Shown here piece by piece: positions 43,637 through 47,947 of a stretch of DNA of 64,000 bases. Position 1 is the first letter of the stretch. Each line of letters begins with the position of its first letter. The stretch comes from an uncultured Clostridia bacterium. Its GTDB lineage: Bacteria; Bacillota; Clostridia; Oscillospirales; Acutalibacteraceae. Location: assembly GCA_946499275.1 (NCBI GenBank), contig CAMMRL010000004.1, forward strand, positions 1-64,000, in the 5' to 3' direction. Position numbers and translations under genes: made by a program. Under the pieces are notes generated by a model. That model was not told the origin of the DNA and did no database searches. It saw only the letters and a list, made by a program, of their open reading frames with translations.

Positions 43637-45930
43637 GCCACCGACCCCCGTATCACATGCGTCCCATCGGTAAATACCGCCGAGGCCCCCGGGATTTCCA
43701 GCCCGTCTACCTCAACGCTTTCCGTGTTGTAATTGACATAAATCGTCCCGCTAGAGTATGTTGTCTTCGCCACACCGCGCCGGGGAACCGCCCGGGATTC
43801 AATCTCCTGGCCCATTACCGGCTCCAGGATCGACGAGATCAGTGAATATGCGTCCACTATATACTCATTCCAGTCCTCCAACCTTGTAGAACGATAACCA
43901 GACGAGGCGGTTTTCCGTAGGCTATAATTGTCCTTGCCGGTCAGTAGGAACGAAGGGTAACAGTTATAGTCGATCATTTTTAGGATATCCGCGCCAGAAA
44001 AAAAGCTTAGGTTGGCGTATGGGGCAAATAAATTCATCGATCCAGACAATACAATTTGAAGGAAGGGAACCGTATCCGTCTGGAACAAATACTGGCTGCT
44101 CACCATGGGAATAGAAAGATAGGAATCCACATATGGGTACAGATAATCGGCTGGGCGGACCATCGTCAGTTTCCCGCTTTCAGCGAGACCCGCAGCCGTG
44201 GAAACAATCTGTTCCCGTACCTCTTCCCGGGTAACGACATGGTCTTCCAAATATTCGCCATAAAGCAGATACCCGATATCGTCTAACGCCAGGCCGAACC
44301 CCTCTTCCATAAGGAGCGGGGCCTGCCGTTGTAATGCCTCCAGCCCCACGGCCGGCTTAAGGTACCAAATATCGCCCAGGAAGGTTTCCTCCGCTGACGG
44401 TTTGATGACCGCGGATTGCGACATAGAGATACCAACCTCGCCGTGGATATCCGCCTGCCCTTCCCTAGCGGTAAAGGGAGAAACCCACAGAGACAGACGG
44501 CCGCCCAATTCCGTCAGCCGCTCCTTCAAGGAATCCAGGGAGGATAACCCGCCGTATACTGTCTTGGTAGAGGAAGAGGTCTTGTCGTATCCGTTCTGTC
44601 CTCCCTTCTGCCAGCCAAGCAACGTCACACGCAAACCCTGGGCTCCCTGTCCGGCCAGCTGTTCCACGGTATCCTTGATTTCGGCCAGGGATGTGGCTTT
44701 ATTCACCGATGTGCCAATAAATTCCTTCTGTACGTCTGCCGAAAGGAAATCCAGCTGCAGCGGCATAGCCATTTCCGGCGGCTTCAGCGATCCCAGGCAT
44801 CCCTGCTCTTTAAGATAGGAGCGGTAGCCTTTGGCCATCCCCACATAATCGGCGTCTTCGCCATGTAGGAACCGGTAGGTCATCGTAACTTTCAGCCGGT
44901 TAGGGGTAGGCTGTACCGTCTGAATCCCTTCGCCGTCCCGGTTGAAAGGTTGTTCATAAGTTTGGCGGTAAACAAATGCCATATACGCGCGGTGATAATT
45001 GGTGATTAAGCCCGCCGGGTCTACTTTGAGCTTGGCATAAGCGCCGCCTTCCTCCACCAAAGCGAAAAAAGCGTTTTGTCCCGTGCCATGGACAATCCCA
45101 AACAACGGCGCAGTAAGGAATTCTTCCTCGGTCATGTATTCTCCGGTCCGGGTGGATTCCAACCCTTGAATGGACTCCAGTGGGTCGGTTCCGTAATCCG
45201 GGCCGTAGACCCGCTTTTCATACCCCTGTAGATAGTTACGCGCCTTTTGAAAACGGATTAACGAACCGCTACCGTCGGGCACAAACATATAACCCGGCTG
45301 CGCATCTTCCGCAACTGAACCAAAAAACGGCAGGAAATATACCGTGCCTAACCGGTATTCCCCGTTTTCTTGGATTGTGTCGCCGTCCAACGTAAAGCGC
45401 AGACCCTCCTGCGTCAGCGCCATGGTGAAATCCAGCTCGATCTGCTGCTCCTCCCACGCCACATGAGCCCGCAAGGTATCGCCCGATACCGTCCAGGTCA
45501 GGTTTTCCGCGTCCGTCCCGTAGGATTTGCTGTTCCCATCTTCGTTGTAGATGTCGGCGGCGATCAAGGAATTGCCGAGCTTCGACCAGGTCTTATTCAA
45601 ATCCTCCGGTTGATCTGCGGCAAGGCTGCCCCATATATAACCCGTGGCTTTATCGCACACCCGCAGCGCACCGGTTTCTTCTCGAATATACACGGCTAGC
45701 GCATCGTTTTCCATCAGCGGTTTGAAGCCCTCCAGCCCGAGGGAAACCGCCTCCCCCGCAACCGGTTCCGGCTGTGTATAGCGGCTGGAGTAAACCTCCT
45801 TGGCGTTATACCGGAAAGATACCGGGTCCGCTGTGGCAGGCGTTTCCTCCGCTTGAACCAGAAAAACAGCTAAAAGCGCCGCCACCGCGCCGGAAGCCAG
45901 CGCCCTCGTCCCCTTTCTAAATCCCCACAC
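43633..45930 (-). CDS. DUF5696-type secreted protein
   Basis: 765 aa; GYMFVPDGSGSLIRFQKARNYLQGYEKRVYGPDYGTD parallels [37 protein letters not shown] in 13006-15276. Confidence 0.75.
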   Translation of the reverse strand: MWGFRKGTRALASGAVAALLAVFLVQAEETPATADPVSFRYNAKEVYSSRYTQPEPVAGEAVSLGLEGFKPLMENDALAVYIREETGALRVCDKATGYIWGSLAADQPEDLNKTWSKLGNSLIAADIYNEDGNSKSYGTDAENLTWTVSGDTLRAHVAWEEQQIELDFTMALTQEGLRFTLDGDTIQENGEYRLGTVYFLPFFGSVAEDAQPGYMFVPDGSGSLIRFQKARNYLQGYEKRVYGPDYGTDPLESIQGLESTRTGEYMTEEEFLTAPLFGIVHGTGQNAFFALVEEGGAYAKLKVDPAGLITNYHRAYMAFVYRQTYEQPFNRDGEGIQTVQPTPNRLKVTMTYRFLHGEDADYVGMAKGYRSYLKEQGCLGSLKPPEMAMPLQLDFLSADVQKEFIGTSVNKATSLAEIKDTVEQLAGQGAQGLRVTLLGWQKGGQNGYDKTSSSTKTVYGGLSSLDSLKERLTELGGRLSLWVSPFTAREGQADIHGEVGISMSQSAVIKPSAEETFLGDIWYLKPAVGLEALQRQAPLLMEEGFGLALDDIGYLLYGEYLEDHVVTREEVREQIVSTAAGLAESGKLTMVRPADYLYPYVDSYLSIPMVSSQYLFQTDTVPFLQIVLSGSMNLFAPYANLSFFSGADILKMIDYNCYPSFLLTGKDNYSLRKTASSGYRSTRLEDWNEYIVDAYSLISSILEPVMGQEIESRAVPRRGVAKTTYSSGTIYVNYNTESVEVDGLEIPGASAVFTDGTHVIRGSVA

Positions 45931-47947
45931 GGTATTTCACCTCTTTCACGATGGACGTAACCATATCCAGGACGCGGTCCCAGAACATTCCGACCAATGA
46001 ACACACAAAAAGAATAATAATCATCAGGAAAAGCGCCAAAAGGATGTTCACAAACGCCTGGCGGAATTCATAATCGTGCAGCTCCCGCAGGGCGATAACC
46101 AGCAGCGCACCGGTCCATACATAGGCAATCCCACTGCCCATGGAAACCAAGAACGCTTCGTTCAGCGTTAACACATGGGTGAGCAAAGTGACTACCGGGA
46201 GGATGCAGATGAAGGGCGTCAAGGCGTATGCCATGCCGATAAACATAGTCTTGAACCGCCCCTTGCCGTCGCTAATCTCACTAACCATATAGCTACTGAT
46301 TAAAAACAGCCCTACCGGAAGAAAAAACATCATTATTACATAGAAGGGCGAGGTATTGTCCAGGCTGTTTGTAGCAAAGGAAAAGCCGCGGAACAGGAAG
46401 TTCAGAGAAAACGCCAGAAAAGCCAATAGGTAAAGGATCAGCGCGGACAGCCAGTTACCCTTCCTCCCGGTCTGCACCTCATAATAGCTGGCGAAGGGAT
46501 GACGAAAAAATCGTACGGCAAAACACAGGTCAGCAACGAACCGGTTTTCCTTCGCCTTTATGGGACATTCCGACGGAACTGGCCGACGTCGCCGGACGCG
46601 GGAAAATACCGCCGAAAGCACTGCCAGAGCTAGAATCAACGCAAACGCCGCGGGCACCACCCAGGACATATTCCGGTTGCGGATTTCCCAAAACGCCTCG
46701 GAATAGCCGGCGGGATTTCCCGCATTCCGGTAATACGCCGCCGCTTCCTCGTACTGTTGGAGTTGGAACGCGTTCTTCCCCAAATAATCGTACACCACTT
46801 TAACGTTCCCTACTTGGCCAAGCAACGCTTCCAAGTTGACCATGCACTGCTCATAGTCACCGGCCCGGTACTGGCGGACGGCGCTGTGAAGCCGGTCCGC
46901 AAAGTCGGTAGACAAATAGGTGTGAACCAGCCCGCGCTCGCCGTCCAGTACGTAAAGCTGCGCGTTTTCATCCACAGCAACGCCGGAAGCCACTGTGACC
47001 AAGCCGCTGCGCTCGCTGGTAGAGGCCCGCCCGCCAAAAGAAAAGAGCAGGGAGCCGTCGCTGTCGTATTCATAAACCAGCCCCGTCTCGGTAACAGCCA
47101 AAATCTGTCCGTCCGGGCCAACGGCGATATCGGTAAAGTTGCTTTCTCCGGGGATATTTTCCGACAACAGGTTCACCCCGGTTACATTGTGCTCCTTAAC
47201 CGCCCCGCTGTCTGTTCCCTGCGTTACAGTGTACAGGATGCCCTGCGGATTGATCGCGAGATTGTAAAAGGAAAGGGGTAGTTTATTAAAAAGCTGCGCC
47301 TTTTGCGCCTCGGTGAAAAATTTGTCCTGGAACAATTCCAGCAGCGACATCGGCACCGAGTTGTAGCCGAAATACCCCAGGAATTCCCCATCAGGACTGA
47401 GTTGCACAATACCGTCGTAAGCGCCGTCCGATACGATGGAGAGGATGCCGTTTCCATCAACCGCTACTTTGCGGGGTTTGTATATCGAATTTTCGCCAAA
47501 CGTACTGGTCTGCGGCCGCCCGAATTCCCGGAGCAACTCTCCTCCCGGCGACAGCAAGAACACCGCCGCCTTGTCAGGGTCTGCGACATAGACGTTTCCC
47601 TCTTCCGTGACAAATACCCCGGTCGGGGACTGGAGGATTCCAGCGCCCAGTTCCGCCGTATCCCCGGTAGCGAGGTTATACCGCAGGACGCGACCCGCGC
47701 CGGTATCCGCAACGTATAACGCGCCGCCCCGTACCGCAATATCCTCGGGTTTATTTAAGGGCTCGTTCAAAAAAAGGACTTCCCCTGTGAGGTATGCATC
47801 CTGCGTACGAATCCAGCCGCTCTCGGCATCGAGGGTATAGGTATAGGCGGTGGCGTTGCCCGTCTGCGGCGGCATCGCTCCGACCGCCGATGAGAGGACG
47901 ACGGCCAACGCCGCGGCGATACAGCCAATCCTTATACAGCGTTTCAT
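45917..47947 (-). CDS. Fused NHL-propeller/TPR + YIP1-family membrane protein
   Basis: Start MKRCIRIGCIAAALAVV with RBS GAGGAGG; ALYVADTGAGRVLRY, NVYVADPDKAAVFLL; TPR; TM; then FFRHPFASYYEVQTGRKGNWLSALI and several TMs. Confidence 0.85.
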   Translation of the reverse strand: MKRCIRIGCIAAALAVVLSSAVGAMPPQTGNATAYTYTLDAESGWIRTQDAYLTGEVLFLNEPLNKPEDIAVRGGALYVADTGAGRVLRYNLATGDTAELGAGILQSPTGVFVTEEGNVYVADPDKAAVFLLSPGGELLREFGRPQTSTFGENSIYKPRKVAVDGNGILSIVSDGAYDGIVQLSPDGEFLGYFGYNSVPMSLLELFQDKFFTEAQKAQLFNKLPLSFYNLAINPQGILYTVTQGTDSGAVKEHNVTGVNLLSENIPGESNFTDIAVGPDGQILAVTETGLVYEYDSDGSLLFSFGGRASTSERSGLVTVASGVAVDENAQLYVLDGERGLVHTYLSTDFADRLHSAVRQYRAGDYEQCMVNLEALLGQVGNVKVVYDYLGKNAFQLQQYEEAAAYYRNAGNPAGYSEAFWEIRNRNMSWVVPAAFALILALAVLSAVFSRVRRRRPVPSECPIKAKENRFVADLCFAVRFFRHPFASYYEVQTGRKGNWLSALILYLLAFLAFSLNFLFRGFSFATNSLDNTSPFYVIMMFFLPVGLFLISSYMVSEISDGKGRFKTMFIGMAYALTPFICILPVVTLLTHVLTLNEAFLVSMGSGIAYVWTGALLVIALRELHDYEFRQAFVNILLALFLMIIILFVCSLVGMFWDRVLDMVTSIVKEVKYRVGI

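Follow-up and report, generated by a model that had tools for sequence, protein, structure and literature searches.

Protein parts that share a single chain at one locus and lie in two adjacent genes at another raise the question of whether they work together, and such a case is found in the DNA of an uncultured Clostridia bacterium. In the stretch of 64,000 nt analysed here (CAMMRL010000004.1 of GCA_946499275.1, positions 1 to 64,000, forward strand; hereafter the window), a reverse-strand gene at 45917–47947, in what is called locus B, encodes a protein of 676 residues that joins a signal peptide, an NHL propeller, TPR-like hairpins, a transmembrane (TM) helix, a linker and a Yip1 domain. 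Elsewhere, these parts exist as separate neighbouring genes, so that the protein is a composite of the kind on which the well-established Rosetta-stone argument is built. Because the fusion is genuine, the genes for its two halves are neighbours and coupled at other loci, and the fused and split states have changed into one another many times, it is very likely that NHL and YIP1 form one physical complex.

The gene has an uninterrupted frame, open from a TTG at 47980 to 45917 (687 amino acids) with zero internal stops. Its probable start is an ATG at 47947, ten bases past the stop of the preceding permease gene, and a GAGGAGG ribosome-binding site before this ATG overlaps that stop. The domain content predicted earlier was recovered within this one open reading frame (ORF) by profile search, hydropathy and an AlphaFold2 model, which was built with 32 fused relatives and has a mean pLDDT (predicted local distance difference test) of 86.3. 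The propeller (residues 36–346; 46910–47842, on the reverse strand like every other feature of loci A and B below) matches Pfam NHL (PF01436) at 47.0 bits against a cut-off of 20. In Foldseek it resembles the NHL domains of TRIM71, Thin, the Pizza designs and PknD with probability 1.00, the E value being 8.5e-17 with the full fusion model and 1.5e-17 with the N-terminal model. The TPR-like segment stands only in part: the model has two helical hairpins, hence only two repeats, at residues 348–409 (46721–46906), and the family profile resembles designed TPR structures at profile positions 373–426, but the Pfam score is below cut-off (TPR_2, 15.1 bits versus 27), which makes the segment weak by sequence.

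A TM helix seen in both hydropathy and the model follows the stalk (residues 412–452; 46592–46714) and ends in RVRRRR. Beyond it come a short linker that the model resolves poorly, then amphipathic helices (469–492) and the Yip1 helices (499–675). As had been claimed, the Yip1 profile (PF04893) matches residues past the TM helix, at 55.6 bits against a cut-off of 28.6 (residues 491–658 of the 687-residue ORF; 46007–46510), and hydropathy and AlphaFold2 agree on five hydrophobic helices in this part. Among the matches listed by Foldseek for the full model only propeller matches were found, with no structural analogue for the Yip1 bundle. The 51-residue loop after the first TM helix is basic (12 K+R versus 4 D+E), as is typical of a segment lying inside, and the ectodomain is net negative (26 K+R, 50 D+E), which together place the propeller outside the cell.

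At locus A, the same parts are carried by two genes that overlap by an ATGA, as originally described, with the NHL and Yip1 profiles matching one gene each. The NHL/TPR/TM protein (15904–17364) contains an NHL match of 34.5 bits (ORF 15904–17448) and a TPR_1 match under the cut-off (18.3 versus 27.8 bits), while the Yip1 protein (15290–15907) scores 53.1 bits against 28.6. The fused protein and the split pair are distant paralogues on deep branches of the family tree, so that locus B did not arise by directly joining the two genes of locus A. The host genome holds ten Yip1 and ten DUF5696 genes, which are neighbours in one-to-one pairs, and in seven of these ten operon copies the Yip1 part is fused to NHL, with the other three separate; a fusion peculiar to locus B is thereby ruled out. 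A count over 40 genomes, those of the host and its relatives, gave 85 Yip1 matches, 80 of which have a DUF5696 gene behind them on the same strand; 49 of the 80 lie in long ORFs and 31 in short ORFs. The fusion is thus no isolated case next to an ordinary split pair: the fused form is the commoner one, in the host (7/10) as among the DUF5696-linked copies of the relatives (49/80). Three of the five exceptions were inspected: two (L150, L152) have no NHL or Yip1 match to the profiles built here, and the third (L149) adjoins a broken DUF5696 gene.

On a wider scale, 136 loci with both parts were gathered from genome-search samples and a profile scan of genome contigs, of which 50 are fused and 86 split, a ratio that is indicative only because the samples are non-random. 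The contig scan was baited with DUF5696, the NHL alignment being too diverse, and so favours loci retaining DUF5696; the loci scanned include Paenibacillus, Cohnella, Lederbergia, Halalkalibacter, Acetivibrio, Lachnospiraceae, Oscillospiraceae and others. In an IQ-TREE phylogeny of 58 diverse rows, with junction columns excluded, the fused or split state requires a minimum of 13 changes (11–13 in bootstrap trees), at least six of which are forced by well-supported branches, and FastTree with 128 rows gives a minimum of 12. The locus B protein falls in an all-fused clade of four with support of 100/100. Whether fusion or fission is ancestral cannot be read from the tree.

Split partners almost always touch or overlap. 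In 84 of the 86 split loci the NHL stop is located between −17 and +68 nt from the start of the Yip1 domain (the two outliers are at +137 and +369 nt), and 4-nt overlaps are frequent. Among the fusions, 31 of 32 have 18–50 residues between TM helix and Yip1 domain, and the linker is poorly conserved (0.85, versus about 2.1 for the flanking domains), as expected of a tether. Since the end of the NHL anchor and the beginning of the Yip1 domain both lie on the cytoplasmic side, fusing the halves leaves the topology unchanged, which would allow fusion and fission to recur easily. Split NHL and YIP1 proteins co-diverge (r of 0.62 after thinning and 0.91 in the full set), at values that no permutation reached. 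Two fusions, L136:5442-8189 and L137:7532-10093, have long, often acidic insertions in the propeller region.

The NHL-YIP1 unit is part of a conserved gene set. The usual order is a substrate-binding protein (SBP) of ~980 residues, two permeases, NHL/TPR-YIP1 as one gene or two, DUF5696 and two further permeases. In 128 of 132 loci, each with at least 3 kb of upstream sequence, NHL and YIP1 directly precede DUF5696; of the remaining four, one (L134) reflects an artefact of the ORF start, and in the other three the DUF5696 gene stands alone. L144, L146 and L147, from sister genera of the same family, are DUF5696 genes with no NHL-YIP1 or permeases nearby. Six lineages were followed further downstream. 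Four of them (L118/L242, L125/L245, L131/L244, L132/L246) have all seven genes in a rotated arrangement that begins with NHL-YIP1 and DUF5696 and continues with a permease pair, the SBP and the other permease pair; in the other two (L241, L243) the SBP and the second permease pair were not found nearby. That the gene set is retained despite rotation argues for a functional unit.

At locus B, the large SBP (49776–52652) has a weak N-terminal CBM35-like match and is preceded by a second SBP upstream of the locus (52716–54188). The ATP-binding cassette (ABC) permeases A1 (48842–49783) and A2 (47958–48845) carry the ATPase-docking EAA loops EAGRIDG and DAAQIDG, and B1 (42737–43636) and B2 (41772–42740) carry EAAAIDG and EAAQLDG. 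Such loops are present in both permease pairs and less regular in the first permease of pair B, which fits the EAA pattern in only 81 of 127 loci; the B1 permease of locus B itself scores below the Pfam cut-off (15.9 versus 26.4 bits) and retains EAAAIDG. Locus A has an equivalent set in its large SBP (19399–22359), permease pairs A (18440–19384 and 17486–18403) and B (12058–12969 and 11031–12044), and DUF5696 protein (13006–15336; Pfam, 589 bits).

With an SBP_bac_1-type binding protein and BPD_transp permeases bearing EAA loops, the module has the attributes of a CUT1 importer. No ATP-binding domain match was found inside the window (C4:1-64000), which leaves the operon without its own ATPase. 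The host genome has ten module copies with two permease pairs each but a single OB_MalK match (G000:C1:20264-20464, L252), so one ATPase is probably shared by all ten. Candidates drawn from ABC_tran matches (L247–L251) were set aside, as their longest recovered ORFs are unlike MalK.

The DUF5696 protein of locus B (PF18952; 43633–45930; Pfam, 484 bits) overlaps the stop of the fusion. It is a distant homologue of the 3,6-anhydro-D-galactosidase DagB (5opq, E 1e-13) and of NagBb of family GH129 (E 1e-7). In all 15 aligned DUF5696 sequences, the Asp of the NagBb LDGW motif, which is mutated in the inactive structure 5wzq, is absent, its place being taken by R, L, N, Q, T, K, S, E or V; the second catalytic residue, NagBb Asp435, lies outside the aligned stretch and is reported to be retained in DagB (PMC5698469). 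Given the missing LDGW Asp, DUF5696 may bind rather than cut, which on sequence grounds makes it a candidate pseudo-glycosidase.

From this gene content, NHL-YIP1 is probably an accessory or docking subunit of a CUT1-type polysaccharide ABC importer. The exported, membrane-anchored propeller with its TPR-like stalk and the five-helix Yip1 membrane protein would act as one unit and as a constant component of an importer made up of the large SBP, two permease heterodimers and the DUF5696 surface protein. Propeller and stalk would keep both the SBP and the GH129-like DUF5696 protein in place on the outside of the cell, and the Yip1 bundle would sit against the permeases, so that oligosaccharides could pass from capture to uptake within one assembly. 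Of the earlier proposal of a complex between a sensor-like propeller and a membrane core, the complex is very likely, given the real fusion, the adjacency and the 13 changes; the propeller is unlikely to be a sensor, and the two accompanying ABC permease pairs are a more plausible core than YIP1. Two considerations weigh against the accessory-subunit reading: co-divergence and adjacency are partly explained by the shared operon, and the docking to binding protein, DUF5696 or permeases is drawn solely from gene content.

Three other explanations were considered. That an assembly error or a frameshift joined two genes is exceedingly improbable; the host genome is indeed a fragmented draft of 90 contigs, but its seven fused paralogues are distinct, fused forms occur in dozens of further assemblies, one of them a complete plasmid, both forms are found across Bacillota, and the 100/100-supported clade of locus B takes in a genome of another family (G331). 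At L142:7497-7838, a TGA inside the Yip1 match interrupts or truncates the YIP1 gene beside an intact NHL gene and DUF5696, possibly through decay or sequencing error. It has also to be asked whether cotranslated neighbours occasionally lose a stop and the tether is then tolerated, with no complex ever formed. The short overlaps at the junctions, where one indel is often enough, would permit this, as would the poorly conserved linker and the 18–50 residues between TM helix and Yip1 domain. However, none of the 86 split pairs is parted by another recognised module gene, in a scoring that presupposed nearby genes, and no like repeated fusion was noticed, without a systematic test, for the equally tight YIP1/DUF5696 and permease/permease pairs. 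Neither recurrent fission nor the rotation of the operon has parted the pair, which makes a fusion of no functional consequence quite unlikely.

Slightly less improbable, but still unlikely, is a transmembrane sensor, in which the propeller binds a glycan or its product on the outer side and the TM helix relays the signal to Yip1, which then regulates the permeases or another partner. This idea draws on PknD, which bears an extracytoplasmic NHL propeller on a TM anchor as its sensor ectodomain and is among both the Foldseek (1rwl) and the sequence (1rwi) matches; the fusion resembles it in this arrangement, but has a TPR-like stalk and a Yip1 bundle instead of a kinase domain. In the Pfam scan no kinase, phosphatase, nucleotide-binding or DNA-binding domain was attached to the fusion, and no output activity of Yip1 domains is known to us. 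In addition, separate regulators lie near the operons in the window, an AraC-type protein at 60237–61253 and a ROK protein at 40489–41679. An accessory subunit of the importer remains the preferred reading.

Parts of the module have already been annotated. The RefSeq ‘YIP1 family protein’ WP_174812422.1 of Paenibacillus cellulosilyticus is an NHL-YIP1 fusion of the same build and lies in an operon with the same gene order, with a UgpC ATPase directly upstream of the module, then SBP and two permeases ahead of the fusion, and DUF5696 and two permeases behind it; its name covers the Yip1 part only, with no function assigned. Plasmid pNP243 of Butyrivibrio fibrisolvens has the same seven-gene order with an ‘NHL repeat-containing protein’ and a ‘YIP1 family protein’ and differs from locus B in that these are encoded by two genes that overlap, like the pair of locus A. 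CUT1 carbohydrate importers with a shared MsmX/UgpC-type ATPase resemble the module in the SBP_bac_1 protein, the MalF/MalG-like EAA-loop permeases and, for the host genome, an ATPase apart from the operon, to which the module adds a second permease pair, a binding protein of ~980 residues with a CBM-like N-terminus, NHL/TPR-YIP1 and DUF5696. A literature search covering few subscription journals returned nothing relevant on DUF5696, this module or YIP1 in ABC operons.

The fusion by itself is a known kind of event, already annotated in RefSeq; the module is the more valuable result and can best be regarded as a new form of CUT1 ABC glycan importer. A bolder and more tentative reading is that it represents an undescribed, Bacillota-wide class of surface glycan importer, similar in function to the Sus systems of Bacteroidetes, in which an NHL/TPR-YIP1 scaffold would hold a giant SBP, a catalytically silent GH129-like protein and two permease pairs, with up to about 20 paralogues per genome. 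The repeated fusion provides strong genomic evidence for a joint function of two unexplained families, the NHL/TPR anchors of bacteria and the stand-alone Yip1 proteins, and points to a conserved and expanded import module whose parts go by no more than labels like DUF5696 or YIP1 family. Recognising the module would allow many glycan loci of gut and soil Bacillota to be annotated and tested as whole systems.

Among the other genes of the window, a protein with DUF4434 and fn3 domains (54178–56730) adjoins locus B. Between the loci, the segment 28480–40446 encodes two pyruvate formate-lyase-like proteins, one with a glycine-radical domain match, a radical SAM protein and two FGGY sugar kinases. 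A homologue of GH106 alpha-L-rhamnosidases (3743–7111) lies downstream of locus A and gives a hint that the substrate contains rhamnose.

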